Positions 15,631 to 22,695 of a DNA stretch of 64,000 nt are shown piece by piece. The position numbers were made by a program, and so were the translations under genes. How positions within the stretch are numbered: the stretch's first letter is position 1; the number at the start of each line of letters is the position of its first letter. This DNA is from Tritrichomonas musculus. Lineage: Eukaryota > Parabasalia > Tritrichomonadida > Tritrichomonadidae. Location: NCBI GenBank assembly GCA_039105265.1, contig JAPFFF010000011.1, forward strand, positions 62,001-126,000. Direction: 5' to 3'. The notes under the pieces were generated by a model. It did not search any database. It was given only the letters and a program-made list of their open reading frames with translations, and was not told the origin of the DNA.

Positions 15631-15895
15631 GGGACCCGAGGTAGTTGTTTAGGTCCCTAGTAGTACTTCAAGAAAAAACAAGTAGTGGGGACCCGAGGTA
15701 GTTGTTTAGGTCCCTAGTAGTACTTCAAGAAAAAACAAGCAGTGGGGACCCGAGGTAGTTGTTTAGGTCCCTAGTAGTACTTCAAGAAAAAACAAGTAGT
15801 GGGGACCCGAGGTAGTTGTTTAGGTCCCTAGTAGTAGTGGGGACCCGAGGTAGTTGTTTAGGTCCCTAGTAGTACTTCAAGAAAAAAACAAGTTG
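15631..15895. repeat. Five tandem 57-bp units each holding a GGGACC / GGTCCC hairpin
   Basis: Units start at 15631, 15688, 15745, 15802 and 15840. The first three are 57 bp apart and the fourth is shortened to 38 bp by loss of 19 bp. Each begins with GGGACC and has GGTCCC about 15 bases later, which can pair as a 6-bp stem. Each full unit also has TAGTAGTACTTCAAG and AAAAAACAAGTAGT, which share words with the 4775-5162 array and with the AGTAGT terminal hexamer. Confidence 0.97.
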
Positions 15896-16051
15896 AAGAA
15901 AAATTTTTTTTTATTTTTTTATTTTTATTTTTATCATTTTTATTTTTTTATTTTTATCATTTTTATTTTTTTATTTTTATCACGAGTTCGTGTTGACGTG
16001 TGGGCTTAAGCGTAGCGTGGCCCCAACGGAAACCGACTCGTATATACTACT
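15896..16051. other. Putative right terminal region of the Maverick
   Basis: A T-rich stretch containing repeated TTTTTATTTTTATCA words is followed at 15979-16051 by a GC-richer segment. That segment includes the palindrome CACGAGTTCGTG and GCTTAAGC and ends CGTATATACTACT. The end matches the AGTAGT terminus of the neighbouring element when read from the other strand, and both termini contain a GAxTCGG word nearby. No gene is seen. The left terminus needed for comparison is outside the window. Confidence 0.5.
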
Positions 16052-17071: not shown

Positions 17072-17077
17072 AGGCTG
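17072..17077. repeat. Target-site duplication, left copy (AGGCTG)
   Basis: This hexamer lies directly outside the left terminal inverted repeat and is identical to 22690-22695 directly outside the right one. Six base pairs is the target duplication length known for Mavericks. Confidence 0.9.
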
Positions 17078-17121
17078 AGTAGTGATGAGTGTTCCGAATC
17101 GGGACCAGATAGAATTCCCTC
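17078..17121 (+). repeat. Left 44-bp terminal inverted repeat
   Basis: It is identical, when reverse-complemented, to 22646-22689. It starts AGTAGTGATGAGTGTTCCG and ends GAATTCCCTC. Beyond 44 bp the similarity stops abruptly on the inner side. Confidence 0.97.
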
Positions 17122-17269
17122 ATAAGCGGGCATATACCCCACAAATCTACACGCTAGGAATCTACCAAATATAAATTTATCCATTAAATTATTTATAATT
17201 ATGATATTTGGATAAGCCAATTTGGGAGTCCATACGCAATATCCCAGATGGCTCGTCTTCCAACTCGAG

Positions 17270-17800
17270 CAAAGCTTAGAAGAATACCTTCTGCATATGG
17301 AGCCATATATGGAGACATATATGGAGACACAAATGGAGCTACTTGGAAAGCTATTTTGGGAATCTGCATATTAGTCCATATATGGAGCTATTTGGGAAAC
17401 TATTATGGGAACAGCAAAATTGCTGTCCCGAGGATTTACATAAACGGTACACTAAATATTGGGTGTACGGGAATTCCCGCAGACCGCTTAGGAGAGCTAT
17501 ATATGGAGCCACTTGGGAATCTGCATATGGAGCTATATATGGAGCTACTTGGGAATCTGTATATTAGTCCATATATGGAGCCACATATGGAGCTACTTGG
17601 AAAGATATTTTGGGAATCTACATATGGAGCTACTTGGGAATCTGTATATTAGTCCATATGTGGAGGCACATATGGAGACACAAATGGAGACACTTGGGAA
17701 GCCATTTGGGAAAGCTATTTTGGGAATCTGCATATGGAGCTATATATGGAGACACTTGGGAAGCCATATATGGAGACACTTGGGAATCTGCAGGAGAATC
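17270..17800. repeat. Left subterminal array of degenerate ATATGGAGCTACTTGGGAATCT repeats
   Basis: Words such as ATATGGAGCTA, ATATGGAGACA, CACTTGGGAA and TTGGGAATCTGCATA recur many times in irregular order. Open frames on the plus strand through this block (encoding YGAIYGATWES-type words) are repeat products and not genes. The reverse complement of the same words occurs at 21940-22090, so the arrays are inverted with respect to the element's centre. The remaining 17122-17269 stretch holds no gene I can see. Confidence 0.93.
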
Positions 17801-17899
17801 CACTTAGAAAATCCCAAAATAAGAATTATAAAATATTTTATTTTTGGGTATTATTAGGTATGTTTCTAATTACGAATCTACTTTTTTCTCGACTTATAA

Positions 17900-20368
17900 A
17901 TGGAAAGCAACGACGCTCTCTTTAAGGAGATTTCCTTAAACAAGACACGAACAGATGCCACATTTGCTATTAAAGAAATCGGTGGTGGTAAAATAAAGCA
18001 CGAAACACTACTATACAACCTTAACCGAGTTATAAACCAAAGCGATATATCGTTTATAGATTACACGGATGGTGGGACACAAACGAATAATCCACTGGAG
18101 CCACTAAACGAGTTATTTAGCGACAATATCGTTGTATATTACCCAATTGACGACGCATTAATTAAGAACATCGAGAAACTAAAGATTAGGAACCCCGATG
18201 ATACCAAAGATGCAGACGCAGATGACCAAACAATAGATAATAGTGCGTTAAATAAAATCGCTAAGGATTTGCTTGGTAGCACCGCTGCTACAATAAAGAG
18301 GGTTCTAAACCAGCTGGATATCGATATACGCAAACCAGATATTAAACCAATTGGAATTAAGAGTGCAGATGGATTTGCTTTCAGACTATCTTCGTTCGTG
18401 CAACTCCTTAAGGTTAATCTATCTAATGTCTCTATCGATAGCATCTTTAATTTACTAGGAGACTCCACCAAAATCGAATTTCTGCATGAAAACCGTGTGT
18501 ATATACACGATATCGACTTTACTCGGGATTACAAAGGTGTATTTAACAAAAGGGATGTTATTAGGCATCTGGTTGGCGAACACAACTTTATAAAGCAAGG
18601 GGATACAAATCCAGATGACAACAAAGATGACAACCCAGTTTTTATAAATAATTCCCAACTCGTATCCAATAATTGTCTAACGTTTATAAGCTCCTCTACA
18701 ATTGGAACCATTAGATACAAATTCTATAACAAGTTTGTGCAATCGATTGAATCCCCGAGTGTCCGCAATAAAATTGGTTCCCATATTAACGATTGGATTA
18801 ACAACCCAGAACCGATATTACGCAAGGCAATCGAGAACTCGTTGGAAACCAGCATTTTAAGATTGGAGTTTACGATGTATCTCTATAAGAACACAACTGG
18901 AACCCTAGATAGAGATGTGGTTTACGCAAATATGGAGTACCTCGAGAATTTAATGCCACCGAATCTAATTTATTTTAATTCTATCGAGAACCAATTTAAT
19001 TTGCTCTGCAAAAATATATTATACAATGTTTGTATTATGGATTTAGAATTGGACCTAGCGTTTGTGGCGTTATACCAGAAGAAGTTGACGGGTAAAGTTA
19101 ATGGGTTCTATATCGAAAAAATAAATGCAACCAAATTATCGAATGCACTCCGGTGGCACTGCTCGAATAAGCCCATTACTGTAATATTAATGCCAATCGA
19201 TTCACATAACGACGAAGTAAATATACAACAGGATAGCTATCTACGAATAAACACCGCAAGCGAACCTCTATATACATATATCCATAAGGGCTGCGAGAAA
19301 TTAAAAGCTGTGCAAACAAAGGATAACATTAATAAACCTGCCGATGTTGGATTAACCCCAAATAATGTATTTAATTTTGTATTCCCAATATCCACAGCAT
19401 CGTTATTAAAATCGAGTACTCGAGAGAAAATAATGTTTAAAATACTGGAATTGGATTTACTAAATTATCCAAACGAGACACTAACTATTCGATCCATTAA
19501 CCGAGATATTAAGGAGGAAACCGAGGAGAATGCTTTTAAGGAACACTACGAACAGCAGATTAACAATATAAAGTCTAAGAACGAGGTTATAGAAGCCCAA
19601 ATCGAGGAGTGCTCCCATAAGGAGATGGTTCGAGATATGCTTTATAAGGTCCTTTCCAACATTAGAGCATACACGAACAGGTTCTTGGATTTAAAGGATG
19701 GGACCGAAATAAATGTGTATGGGTTTAAAGAAACTAGAACCCGATATGGCAAGACATATTTGCTAGCATGTTCGTTAAATGTAATGCACGATGTCGATGG
19801 AAATTTAATAGAATACATGGTACCCCAAACCATATTACAATTATATTGGTGTCCTTCGAATATTGCGCATTACATAGACAAAATAATAACCAATAAGGGA
19901 TTTAAGCAACTGGATATTAAACGAATAACAGCATATGGGAGCTTAACTGGAATCCCAATAATGCAATTAATTAAGGAGGGCTCGTTTACAAACGCATCTG
20001 AAAATTTATGTGCCAAGATGGTTGTAAAGGAATGCAAAAATAACGAAACAGAAGATATTACTGGATATCGCGACTATATTATGCAAGAGATGGATGCAAA
20101 TATAAAGCAATGCAAGAAGATAGACGAGGATGTTAAATTAGGAGATATAATTAAGGTAACTGGGTACAAACTCCTTAAGAGCTCGCTATTAATACGCTGT
20201 TCTATTAATGGTGGAGACCCCAAGGATTATATAGCCACATATTGGCTTAAGGAGATAATCCTGGACAAACTTAAATCTACCAAAATAACCAATTGTATAG
20301 AAGCTGTTGTTGGACCCAATAAGACCACTCCGCAAAAACAGAAATGCTATATTTATGTGGTTAGCTAA
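17900..20368 (+). CDS. 822-aa protein, candidate replication/ssDNA-binding protein of the 5.6-kb element
   Basis: I cannot assign a family. The start reads TATAAATG at 17900. Residues 1-70 are polar with a GGTQTN motif at 58-63. A central part (about 190-400) contains IHDIDFTRDYKG, TIRYKFYNKFVQSIES and ILRLEFTMYL. Such a Y-x-K followed later by an R-x-E strand is seen in rolling-circle initiators, but no HUH motif is visible here. Towards the C-terminus two similar blocks, INVYGFKETRTRYGKTYLL and DIIKVTGYKLLKSSLLIR, look like OB-fold strands of single-strand-DNA-binding domains. As the only large gene of the element it is the best candidate for its replication protein. Base and codon use differ from the host genes, with more GGA, CGA and ACC codons. 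Confidence 0.85.
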   Translation: MESNDALFKEISLNKTRTDATFAIKEIGGGKIKHETLLYNLNRVINQSDISFIDYTDGGTQTNNPLEPLNELFSDNIVVYYPIDDALIKNIEKLKIRNPDDTKDADADDQTIDNSALNKIAKDLLGSTAATIKRVLNQLDIDIRKPDIKPIGIKSADGFAFRLSSFVQLLKVNLSNVSIDSIFNLLGDSTKIEFLHENRVYIHDIDFTRDYKGVFNKRDVIRHLVGEHNFIKQGDTNPDDNKDDNPVFINNSQLVSNNCLTFISSSTIGTIRYKFYNKFVQSIESPSVRNKIGSHINDWINNPEPILRKAIENSLETSILRLEFTMYLYKNTTGTLDRDVVYANMEYLENLMPPNLIYFNSIENQFNLLCKNILYNVCIMDLELDLAFVALYQKKLTGKVNGFYIEKINATKLSNALRWHCSNKPITVILMPIDSHNDEVNIQQDSYLRINTASEPLYTYIHKGCEKLKAVQTKDNINKPADVGLTPNNVFNFVFPISTASLLKSSTREKIMFKILELDLLNYPNETLTIRSINRDIKEETEENAFKEHYEQQINNIKSKNEVIEAQIEECSHKEMVRDMLYKVLSNIRAYTNRFLDLKDGTEINVYGFKETRTRYGKTYLLACSLNVMHDVDGNLIEYMVPQTILQLYWCPSNIAHYIDKIITNKGFKQLDIKRITAYGSLTGIPIMQLIKEGSFTNASENLCAKMVVKECKNNETEDITGYRDYIMQEMDANIKQCKKIDEDVKLGDIIKVTGYKLLKSSLLIRCSINGGDPKDYIATYWLKEIILDKLKSTKITNCIEAVVGPNKTTPQKQKCYIYVVS

Positions 20369-20381
20369 AAATAATTTATTG

Positions 20382-20642
20382 TTATTCTCCATCCAGGACT
20401 GTGGATACGGACATGAAATATAGGATGTCGTCGTTGTCTCGTCTGTCGAAGAATAAGGTGCGATACTTCTTAATAAACAAGCCAGGGAATGTAAAACTAT
20501 ATTTTCCTTTAATAGTAGAATATTTATATACTGGCCCATATGGAGCTTTAATTAGAACATAGTTGTTGTAATCCTGGATGGTGCATCCATTAAAAGTAAA
20601 TGTTTCTGCTGGTGTCGCATTGCCATTATCTTTGGAAAACAT
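20382..20642 (-). CDS. Small beta-rich protein of unknown function (86 aa)
   Basis: It runs convergently to the 822-aa gene with a 13-bp gap. The start reads ATAAATG at 20642. The sequence has short strands rich in Tyr, Phe and Ile (FTFNGCTIQDYNNYVLIKA, KYSFTFPGLFI) with Gly/Asp turns, and no helix of note. I do not recognise it. Confidence 0.6.
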   Translation of the reverse strand: MFSKDNGNATPAETFTFNGCTIQDYNNYVLIKAPYGPVYKYSTIKGKYSFTFPGLFIKKYRTLFFDRRDNDDILYFMSVSTVLDGE

Positions 20643-20805
20643 TTATGTGGAGATAAAAAATAATATTTAGGTATGTTCGAAAATATATATTTTTATTTTT
20701 AAACACATGTATTTGTATATAAACATATTGCTACTAGCTATTTCTAGAGCCATTACGTTACCATAATATTATTACTATATAATACATTTTTTTTGCAATT
20801 AAAGG

Positions 20806-21105
20806 ATGGATTTCGAAACATATATTGCTAAACACGATAGATTCGATAGAAGTGGAGTCCGGGATTATATTAAAGATGTAATCCAAAAGGATAACCATAT
20901 ATTGTTCTATAACAAGGACTTTAAAGAATGGATGGTCCAGGATCGACATACTGGATGTCGTAAATATTTGGTAATTATTTTACCGTTCGAAGATAGCGTG
21001 CAAAGTATTGGATTCCTATTGGGTATCTTCCCACACCCAACACTATTATTAAAAACATTGTACGATATAGAGGATACCGAACTTAATAAAGCGTGGGATA
21101 GATAA
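20806..21105 (+). CDS. Small protein of unknown function (99 aa)
   Basis: It starts at the ATG at 20806 after a T-rich leader. A charged helical N-terminus (DRSGVRDYIKDVIQKD) is followed by a strand-rich middle (HILFYNKDFKEWMVQD) and a hydrophobic segment (IGFLLGIFPHPTLLLKTLYDI). It is the first of three closely spaced plus-strand genes. No family is recognised. Confidence 0.6.
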   Translation: MDFETYIAKHDRFDRSGVRDYIKDVIQKDNHILFYNKDFKEWMVQDRHTGCRKYLVIILPFEDSVQSIGFLLGIFPHPTLLLKTLYDIEDTELNKAWDR

Positions 21106-21145
21106 TAGGTTTAAGCACATCGTGGATTGGAACCATTATCTAAAT

Positions 21146-21397
21146 ATGGTACACATGGATGTCTGCAGTAAGCAAATAACCGAGATTTTACAGCATAGGG
21201 ATTTATGCGCAAGATTGCAACAGAACATAATCGATAACACATTAGCTCTACAGCAATCGGTACTGGATTACATCGAGAAGAATAAAACCAAAGATTGCGA
21301 CGAGGATAGTATCGAGCTAGATTCCATAAGAGCAAGACTGTACGAAATCGTAAAAAATATTTGCTCGTTAACGCACTATATTATCGTCACCGACTAA
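21146..21397 (+). CDS. Small helical protein of unknown function (83 aa)
   Basis: I chose the ATG at 21146; the frame is open further upstream but only from a GTG at 21122. The protein is predicted all-helical (ITEILQHRDLCARLQQNII and DSIRARLYEIVKNICSL), with an acidic link in between. It follows the 99-aa gene by 40 bp and precedes the 151-aa gene by 51 bp. It resembles in size and character the small helical proteins of the Maverick at 14480 and 15382, without clear sequence identity. Confidence 0.55.
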   Translation: MVHMDVCSKQITEILQHRDLCARLQQNIIDNTLALQQSVLDYIEKNKTKDCDEDSIELDSIRARLYEIVKNICSLTHYIIVTD

Positions 21398-21448
21398 TAA
21401 ATTTATTTTTATATTAGCATTATATAATATCTTTTTATTACAGAATAA

Positions 21449-21904
21449 ATGGATACCAAATATACAGACTCGAAGAGGTTGGATACCGAGCCATCTACGG
21501 ATAACACAGAGGAGGAAGATATGGATTTACCACAAATGGATGTACGACCAAAGGAATCCAACAATACTCCCAACAATACTAAAGAATATAAAAATAATTG
21601 GAGTGCCAAAAGGAGAGAGCATTGGAATGCATATATGCGAAACTATAATGCCAAAAAGAAGCAGCAGCATATAGAACAACTAGGCAAGATTACAATCGAA
21701 TACCACAATTCGATTAAATCTTACGATAAAACCGATGTAATCCAGGTACTATACGACGCTATTAATATATACGGCACGATTTTAGATATCTATATAGACC
21801 AGTTACCGAGAGATGCAGTAGATAAGATTCGCGCAACTTACAGTAAAAACAATATTGTGGAATCCATAAATATATTGCAAAAATATATTAAGTATTTACA
21901 GTAA
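21449..21904 (+). CDS. Basic DNA-binding-like protein with helical C-terminal domain (151 aa)
   Basis: The start reads ATAAATG at 21449. Residues 1-45 are acidic and disordered. Residues 46-72 are strongly basic and aromatic (KRREHWNAYMRNYNAKKK), similar in style to the basic segment of the Maverick AT-hook protein at 5412. Residues 75-151 form a helical domain (IQVLYDAINIYGTILDIYI). A DNA-binding or regulatory role is plausible but inferred. The last 9 bp overlap the 3' end of the convergent gene. Confidence 0.65.
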   Translation: MDTKYTDSKRLDTEPSTDNTEEEDMDLPQMDVRPKESNNTPNNTKEYKNNWSAKRREHWNAYMRNYNAKKKQQHIEQLGKITIEYHNSIKSYDKTDVIQVLYDAINIYGTILDIYIDQLPRDAVDKIRATYSKNNIVESINILQKYIKYLQ

Positions 21905-22375
21905 AAATAAGATCCCTAGTACAATTATTTTTGGCTTTCCAAGTGTCTCCATATATAGCTCCATATGCAGATTCCCAAAATAACTCCATATATGGCTCCA
22001 TATATGGACTAATATGTAGATTCCCAAAATATCTTTCCAAGTAGCTCCATATGTGGCTCCATATGCAGATTCCCAAGTGGCTCCATATGAGAATTCAAGT
22101 ATTTTCAATAGCGTCTTAATCCTGCCCAAATCGAGTTCCTTGCGATCATAGCTATCACCATCTATGATTTTGGCTCGAAGGGATTCCAAATCAGTTTCAA
22201 AATTTGATATTGTATCGATGAGATCATCCATGAAATCATCGTCGTTGTGGTAGTCGAATGCAAGGGATTTCTTTTGTGGGTATTTCTTGAGAATGACTCG
22301 TTCGAGGTAATCGAGTTTGACACTATTAGCTTCGACATTGGAGAGTTGTGGCATGGCAACTGTTGTTGAATTCAT
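21896..22375 (-). CDS. Small acidic helical protein whose 3' end is encoded by subterminal repeats
   Basis: The start is the ATG at 22375. The first 95 residues look like a normal gene: an acidic helical protein (DDDFMDDLIDTISNFETDLE) ending in LGRIKTLLKILEF. From about 22090 on the open frame runs through the degenerate repeat block and encodes YGATWES-type words to a stop at 21896. The original stop was probably lost when the repeat array invaded or expanded into the 3' end, so the mature tail is likely non-functional. The family is unknown. Confidence 0.55.
   Translation of the reverse strand: MNSTTVAMPQLSNVEANSVKLDYLERVILKKYPQKKSLAFDYHNDDDFMDDLIDTISNFETDLESLRAKIIDGDSYDRKELDLGRIKTLLKILEFSYGATWESAYGATYGATWKDILGIYILVHIWSHIWSYFGNLHMELYMETLGKPKIIVLGILFLL
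21940..22090. repeat. Right subterminal repeat block (inverted copy of 17270-17800 words)
   Basis: Words such as AGCTCCATATATGG, CAGATTCCCAAAATA and CCAAGTAGCTCCATATG are reverse complements of the left array. The block is shorter than the left one. Confidence 0.93.
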
Positions 22376-22645
22376 TTCTAACTGGATAAAAAATTGAATT
22401 GATTCAAGATTCGCGTTATTTTGGGAATTCTATATGGGTTGCTCCATTAGCTTGTTCCATTAGCTTGTTCCATTAGCTTGTTCCAAATATGGGCTATTTA
22501 TGGCGTTTTTGGGTATAATTCATTATGGGTTCAAAATATGGTCCCATATGTGGGTCCCAACTATGAGTCCAAAATATGGGTTATGTGTGTATGTTATTTT
22601 TGAAATTTGTATGGGGCCAAAAAGTGTGCTATTTAGGGCGTTTTT
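22376..22645. repeat. Right subterminal region with 15-bp and ATATGGG-type repeats
   Basis: Three tandem copies of CCATTAGCTTGTTCC lie at about 22444-22487. They are followed by degenerate words such as AAATATGGG, GTCCCATATGTGGGTCCC and GGGCGTTTTTG. No gene is supported. Confidence 0.8.
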
Positions 22646-22689
22646 GAGGGAATTCTATCTGGTCCCGATTCGGAACACTCATCACTACT
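22646..22689 (-). repeat. Right 44-bp terminal inverted repeat
   Basis: It is a perfect reverse complement of 17078-17121 and ends CATCACTACT at 22689. Confidence 0.97.
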
Positions 22690-22695
22690 AGGCTG
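22690..22695. repeat. Target-site duplication, right copy (AGGCTG)
   Basis: It is identical to 17072-17077 and sits directly outside the right terminal repeat. Confidence 0.9.

Follow-up and report, generated by a model that had tools for sequence, protein, structure and literature searches.

Non-autonomous DNA transposons are mobilized in trans through helper ends, which is also what we presume for the elements described here, built around a core that we call S; unlike such transposons, S has ends of its own, conserved genes under selection, and helper ends that change from copy to copy. Mavericks (Polintons), according to PMC10120064, are now often read as integrated viruses, and integration by an rve integrase typically gives 6-bp duplications (PMC12220804). 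S elements resemble Mavericks in their AGTAGT outer ends, in 5-6-bp duplications, and in end pieces and end genes such as those of the local large Mavericks; they differ in having no polymerase, integrase, ATPase or capsid gene that we could find, and in a core that is unrelated as far as compared. The transpovirons of mimiviruses, as presented in PMC7031253, are small satellites with terminal repeats of hundreds of base pairs, few genes and a bigger DNA virus as partner, and in these respects S is like them; they count a helicase among their core genes, whereas S has no recognizable helicase, resides in a protist genome and lies between helper ends. Adenovirus/adeno-associated virus (AAV) hybrid genomes, as described in PMC3185507, likewise place a repeat-flanked satellite unit inside a helper virus genome devoid of genes; these hybrids are laboratory vectors, whereas S looks like a natural life cycle. 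The literature searched, which covered few subscription papers and included PMC4495683 and PMC2836005, yielded no description of a satellite living off Mavericks.

Our main reading, to which we assign a probability of about 0.7, is that S, a satellite, takes on the ends of a helper Maverick as caps and is integrated by that helper. This genome holds a candidate family of such Maverick satellites. We file S among satellite elements, with a fair chance that its way of moving is new in kind.

The window, by which we mean the whole stretch of 64,000 nucleotides that was analyzed, is C11:62001-126000 of a 193-Mb, 746-contig assembly of Tritrichomonas musculus. The element under study spans positions 17078-22689 (5,612 bp) and is flanked on both sides by the unstranded target-site duplication AGGCTG (17072-17077 and 22690-22695), which a preliminary description of this DNA had already recognized, together with the outermost bases AGTAGT that the element has at its ends as Mavericks do. 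That description also gave the terminal inverted repeats as perfect, which they are, over 45 bp (17078-17122 and 22645-22689) rather than 44, with 49 of 51 positions matching over 51 bp. A site resembling the state before insertion is present at the paralogous C12:4827346, which carries AGGCCG once and no insert; when the two flanks of the element are joined, they align with this site over 108 bp at 78%.

The inner boundaries of the element, at 17120 and about 22084-22093, had escaped the first reading, as had its composite structure, the TC(A/T) junctions and the re-capture of ends. The left Maverick end piece (17078-17119, plus strand) measures 42 bp and is identical to the right end, an identity that continues past 17119 through TCA to 17122. 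The right end piece (22084-22689, minus strand) measures about 600 bp, carries the 45-bp terminal repeat at its tip, and resembles the ends of C18, C44 and other large elements. The terminal genes of C18-type Mavericks are EATP at one end and MNS (a name coined here) at the other; a truncated MNS lies in the right piece of the window element (22084-22375, minus strand), and a longer copy is found at the right end of C18. The S core (17120-22088, plus strand) has an intact left end (TCATAAGCGGG), whose sharp boundary at 17120 was seen on reading the loci from the end search, and a truncated right end that joins Maverick DNA at about 22084-22093, inside a short stretch common to both sides. Judged by these comparisons, the window element is a chimera, an S core between end pieces of one Maverick lineage.

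At the left of the core, the S terminal repeat (17120-17182, plus strand) is 96.9% identical to other copies, and an unstranded subterminal repeat field (17290-17815) consists of units like ATGGAGCCACTTGG, with an inverted counterpart at 21927-22093. Exact inverted S terminal repeats were found in seven other loci, at 84, 84, 133, 150, 369, 596 and 637 bp, one of these loci being a 62% relative, C64. A DNA hairpin at the S terminus was not significant (z -1.5 and -0.95). The core encodes an intact 822-aa protein of an orphan family (17900-20368, plus strand); an 86-aa protein (20382-20642, minus strand) conserved among S copies as well as in the relatives at 85% and 62%; a 197-aa protein of other copies (20806-21397, plus strand), which in the window is split into ORFs of 99 and 83 aa; and a 151-aa protein (21449-21904, plus strand) conserved among S copies and also in relatives at a greater distance. 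Across copies, the set comprises a protein of 818-822 aa plus three more, of 86, 197 and about 151 aa, so that all genes other than the 822-aa gene are of 197 aa or less. The preliminary count of five small proteins beside the 822-aa one was roughly right; the 99- and 83-aa ORFs are one broken gene, and the 159-aa ORF is the MNS remnant running on into S repeats. The window copy is degraded, with its 197-aa gene broken and its right S end lost, and we count this against the main reading.

No integrase or polymerase had been noticed in the element, and this held on closer inspection. The ORF list and Pfam revealed no polymerase, integrase, ATPase, protease or capsid gene in 17078-22689; for the six ORFs of the element, Pfam returned no significant match, no core Maverick gene and no helicase family. 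Pfam by itself carries limited weight here, because it likewise failed to detect the polymerase of the C18 Maverick and a 560-aa protein of the Maverick in the window. A tblastn search at 1e-4 with the C18 Maverick proteins gave no match in the S parts of loci L034 and L042. The missing enzymes and the helper ends suggest that the satellite would depend on helper functions in trans. For the 822-aa gene, seven pairs scored against copy C2_9206 gave dN/dS values of 0.07-0.17; the value was 0.10 with the 85% relative, and 0.33-0.43 between the window and eight others; the sequences place this gene under purifying selection.

Further copies were sought with the first 83 bp of the element; 40 of 105 candidates were scored, so that counts are lower bounds. 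Positions 1-48 of this query matched in pairs 22-50 kb apart, and positions 42-83 in pairs mostly about 5-6 kb apart. The search with the 822-aa protein gave at least 58 matches (55 of 362 candidates); among the 58 matches listed, ten are full-length at 95-100% identity (the window is one of them, and one of the ten has an internal stop), a single match is at 85% and two are at 62%, besides which there are fragments and a family at 36-39%. An S terminus was read at 17 loci, and at 12 of these a Maverick-type end lies on both sides. The 12 two-ended loci are no test in themselves, since they were chosen by their Maverick ends; the test is the duplications, which were found at the outer ends of 11 of the 12, ten of 6 bp and one of 5 bp: AGGCTG in the window, AAGCAG at C2_3455, CACCTG at C9, AACCAA at C11_900, GACATT at C11_1700, AAGGAC at C12_1696, ATCATT at C15, GCGGAT at C19_2718, GAGGTT at C12_1062, AAGGTA at C11_1064, and the 5-bp GGATA at C64, the 62% relative. 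C19_2666 has two Maverick-type ends and no duplication, which counts against the main reading. Taken together, 12 two-ended loci, 11 of them with duplications, indicate that the Maverick ends on S are not there by chance. Outer duplications of 6 bp are in keeping with an rve integrase, because such integration typically produces duplications of this length (PMC12220804). The preliminary description had proposed Maverick-type integration and had named other copies, duplications and insert-free sites as the things to look for; the 17 S loci, the 5-6-bp duplications at 11 of them, and the paralogous empty sites, which for C64 lie on C13 and C5, bear it out.

Other loci depart from this pattern. 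At C4, C1_6942 and C2_9205 a Maverick end is present on one side only in the sequence read, and the other side of C2_9205 runs on into a Maverick polymerase gene. No Maverick end was found in 992 bp of flank at C8, a 62% relative, or in 1.5 kb of flank at C65; both loci, each of which offers one S end, may be S ends at host sites and are, like the three one-sided loci, counted against the main reading. The C8 relative (C8:784873-790293, L045) is missing its other S end. At C12_1062, 3.0 kb lie between the S ends. At one terminus of C12_1696 there is one AGT triplet fewer than elsewhere; the AGTAGT triplet repeat and this lost AGT presumably fit a protein-primed start with sliding back. At C11:1064376-1103835 (L027, L043, L019), the 822-aa gene of an S copy was later interrupted by an insert of about 34 kb, which has AGTAGT ends and the duplication CTGGTT. 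A 3.6-kb unit with C64-type ends of 271 bp each was seen at C14:1611615-1615259 (L074, L075).

Eight S cores outside the window are 98.7-99.9% identical over about 3.8 kb, and the window core is 96.2-96.6% identical to them. The Maverick end pieces on S copies are of several lineages and of differing lengths: over their first 100 bp, ten helper ends show 51-77% identity between end types, with four pairs at 91-100%, and the C64 helper end is 34-47% identical to the others. Cores as alike as these under the ends of several lineages hint at present or recent activity of these Mavericks. Judged by genes or flank content, the identical Maverick end lies on both sides at C2_3455, C15, C19_2666, C12_1062 and C11_1064, and C64 probably also has one end type on both sides; C11_900, C11_1700 and C12_1696 have one end of each kind; and in the window copy, C9 and C19_2718 at least one flank is so short that it may lie within an end repeat. 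When the two flanks within a copy were compared, they matched fully over their shared length (44 to 527 bp) in seven of eight copies and at 499 of 501 positions in the eighth, and in two copies with different ends they matched at 60 and 57 positions of the first 60 bp, so that the ends of any one copy seem to stem from a single helper molecule or from identical ones. C2_3455 and C2_9205 have a common junction site, but only 446 of 501 flanking positions agree between them, and they therefore look like separate captures. Three copies, C19_2666, C19_2718 and C12_1062, show base-for-base mirror symmetry, which suggests copying of one capped end onto the other by way of annealed S terminal repeats.

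The joins between S and Maverick DNA were then compared. Of 26 junction flanks listed, 20 were comparable with uninterrupted Maverick DNA and represent 16 distinct sites; C9_L, C19_2718, C11_1064_L, C4, C8 and C65 were left out. At the join, the Maverick DNA reads TC at 15 of the 16 sites, TCA at 13 and TCAT at six, against a background in nine Maverick ends of 6.0%, 2.2% and 0.57%, respectively (binomial P for 16 sites: 7e-18, 2e-19 and 3e-10). The better reference allele was used where alleles differ (for example C19_2666, or one EATP site with TCAT or TCG), and the window site was judged by the window element's own right end; with the three most uncertain junctions taken as misses, TC remains at 11 of 15 (P 4e-11) and TCA at 10 of 15 (P 8e-14). 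The sole site without TC, which counts against the main reading as does the dependence on the allele chosen, is the right junction of C12_1696, and one junction lies inside a Maverick polymerase gene.

These observations bear on two other accounts of how S came to lie between Maverick ends. S could be an ordinary transposon that inserts into Mavericks, whose interiors were deleted later so that S was left between two ends. Its long terminal repeats would suit a transposon, the three copies with one end of each kind are what insertion followed by deletion predicts, and C8 and C65, without a Maverick end in the flank read, point the same way. This account is strained by the five copies with one Maverick end on both sides, probably joined by C64, since insertion and interior loss do not give one Maverick end twice, whereas end capture does. 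Moreover, no duplication was seen at the S ends, where the joins are at TC(A/T) and the flanks are unlike or mirrored on the two sides, and no S was seen inside a whole Maverick in the flanks read (about 0.04 to 3 kb per side); we consider insertion unlikely. A still poorer candidate is that the element is a plain non-autonomous deletion derivative of a Maverick with a chance cargo gene. Such a derivative would have Maverick ends, a 6-bp duplication and no core gene, as found here, but it predicts one end context per cargo, and ends of several Maverick lineages were found on a cargo that forms a single conserved unit of several genes with sharply defined ends; the 62% relative, in addition, sits between yet another type of AGTAGT end. 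We give this explanation very little credence.

If S is a satellite capped with helper ends, the capture of these ends at short TCA(T) sites is the route that we infer. Helper DNA would be replicating, and each S end would be joined to it at a short TCA(T) site; S would thereby gain helper termini on both sides, either one end type twice or one of each, and the capped molecule would be replicated from, and then integrated by, helper terminal functions. The join could arise in two ways. The S 3' end (...TTATGA-3') could anneal to TCA(T) on a displaced helper single strand and be extended to the helper terminus, for which micro-homology is all that is needed; or the S protein could nick at ^TCA(T) on both S and helper and rejoin them, for which an enzyme is needed. 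A more far-reaching version, to which we give even odds, is that a satellite with a replicon-like core repeatedly drops and regains the termini of co-resident Mavericks at TCA(T) sites and so circulates among many helper lineages; S would then be, in effect, a counterpart of AAV in protists, taking over its helper's chromosome ends as well as proteins. Neither a free form of S nor helper activity or packaging was seen in the sequence data. As an archive of end capture formed in nature, the S family would help in understanding how linear DNA viruses recombine.

Searches with the 822-aa protein returned little. None of forty database relatives has a precomputed Pfam domain; Pfam on 24 family members gave 25 families, each in one member and none consistent; a PDB sequence search gave only weak matches, outside the most conserved region; and among viral contigs and prokaryote genomes patterns were matched and no relative was confirmed. 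The family has invariant or near-invariant stretches, D-x-D-F-T, Y-N-K and R-L-E, and the predicted structure (pLDDT 86.3, pTM 0.73) has strands at 76-83, 148-155, 166-173, 201-212, 259-266, 269-277 and 319-327. The pattern of invariant residues is reminiscent of Rep_trans initiators, which we take as a lead only. It is possible, though we lean somewhat against it, that the protein is a Rep_trans/HUH-type replication initiator or nickase, S being to the Maverick as AAV is to adenovirus. The precise ^TCAT ends of S, the junctions at TCA(T), the conserved stretches and the model strands at pLDDT 86 speak for such an enzyme, but the protein has no noteworthy Pfam or PDB sequence match, and micro-homology priming accounts for the junctions without a nickase. 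In either case this orphan family comes with a definite terminal site.

A candidate helper with matching ends and enzyme set is present in the same genome. The 22.7-kb stretch C18:259814-282473 is a full Maverick with the ends of the window element and the duplication CAGTTG, and the ORFs bordering it read like two parts of one host helicase gene. One C18 protein is similar to the 560-aa protein of the window Maverick (E 1e-14), which we took for a capsid protein and whose capsid identity Pfam did not pick up; another is similar to the window Maverick ATPase (E 5e-10). For the integrase the similarity is weak, at E 3e-4 and 2e-3 in two separate ORFs, which counts against the main reading; the integrase of this copy is apparently interrupted. 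The 1,810-aa C18 protein has 75 database relatives, of which 10 have a precomputed PF03175 (DNA polymerase B) and one is named DNA-directed DNA polymerase; it also has motifs that we take for those of a polymerase. The polymerase call rests on these relatives and motifs, since Pfam gave no significant match for the C18 proteins, this one included; blastp against the partial polymerase of the window Maverick found nothing (E 0.44). Helper-type ends 22-50 kb apart occur in at least six pairs; in four of these both ends were inspected, and each of the four has a 6-bp duplication. The evidence against a satellite that had been named beforehand was larger elements that combine identical ends with an integrase or polymerase of their own, and in the letter C18 is one of them. 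We read C18-type elements as helpers instead, since no 822-aa copy was found there, either among the 58 matches listed (55 of 362 candidates) or in the ORF lists of the C18 pieces, and since S copies carry the ends of several such lineages.

Positions 1 to about 16000 of the window are part of a Maverick of another lineage than C18, with genes for a polymerase (PF03175), a Pox_A32-type ATPase, a Ulp1 protease and HNH, and with an rve match below the curated cut-off. The idea of a satellite put forward in the preliminary description has fared well in the light of the other copies, the Maverick ends and the duplications, less so in its choice of this neighbor, 1 kb away, as the source: within the window the neighbor does not show the end of the element, whose ends match another lineage such as C18. 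The element's end sequence occurs in the window, which covers part of that Maverick, only at the two element ends, and the neighbor was dropped as end donor. The integrase of the window Maverick has at least 110 genome matches at 98% identity or more (of 1867 first-look candidates), and a repeat array with spacings of 57, 38 and 19 bp lies in or near this Maverick at 15631-15931.

The 36-39% relatives of the 822-aa gene were considered as bigger autonomous versions and rejected, the one on C27 being a large inverted dimer in which no other long gene is present. This dimer (C27:1417520-1435677; L056, L061, L057) is near-perfect and about 18 kb long; no further long ORF was found in its middle, whereas close to either end lies a relative, at 36%, of the 822-aa gene, and 14-bp repeat arrays occupy the ends. 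Members of this family also lie close to the beginnings of contigs C13 and C35 and on other contigs, among them C423, C482, C575, C624, C627 (17 kb) and C630.
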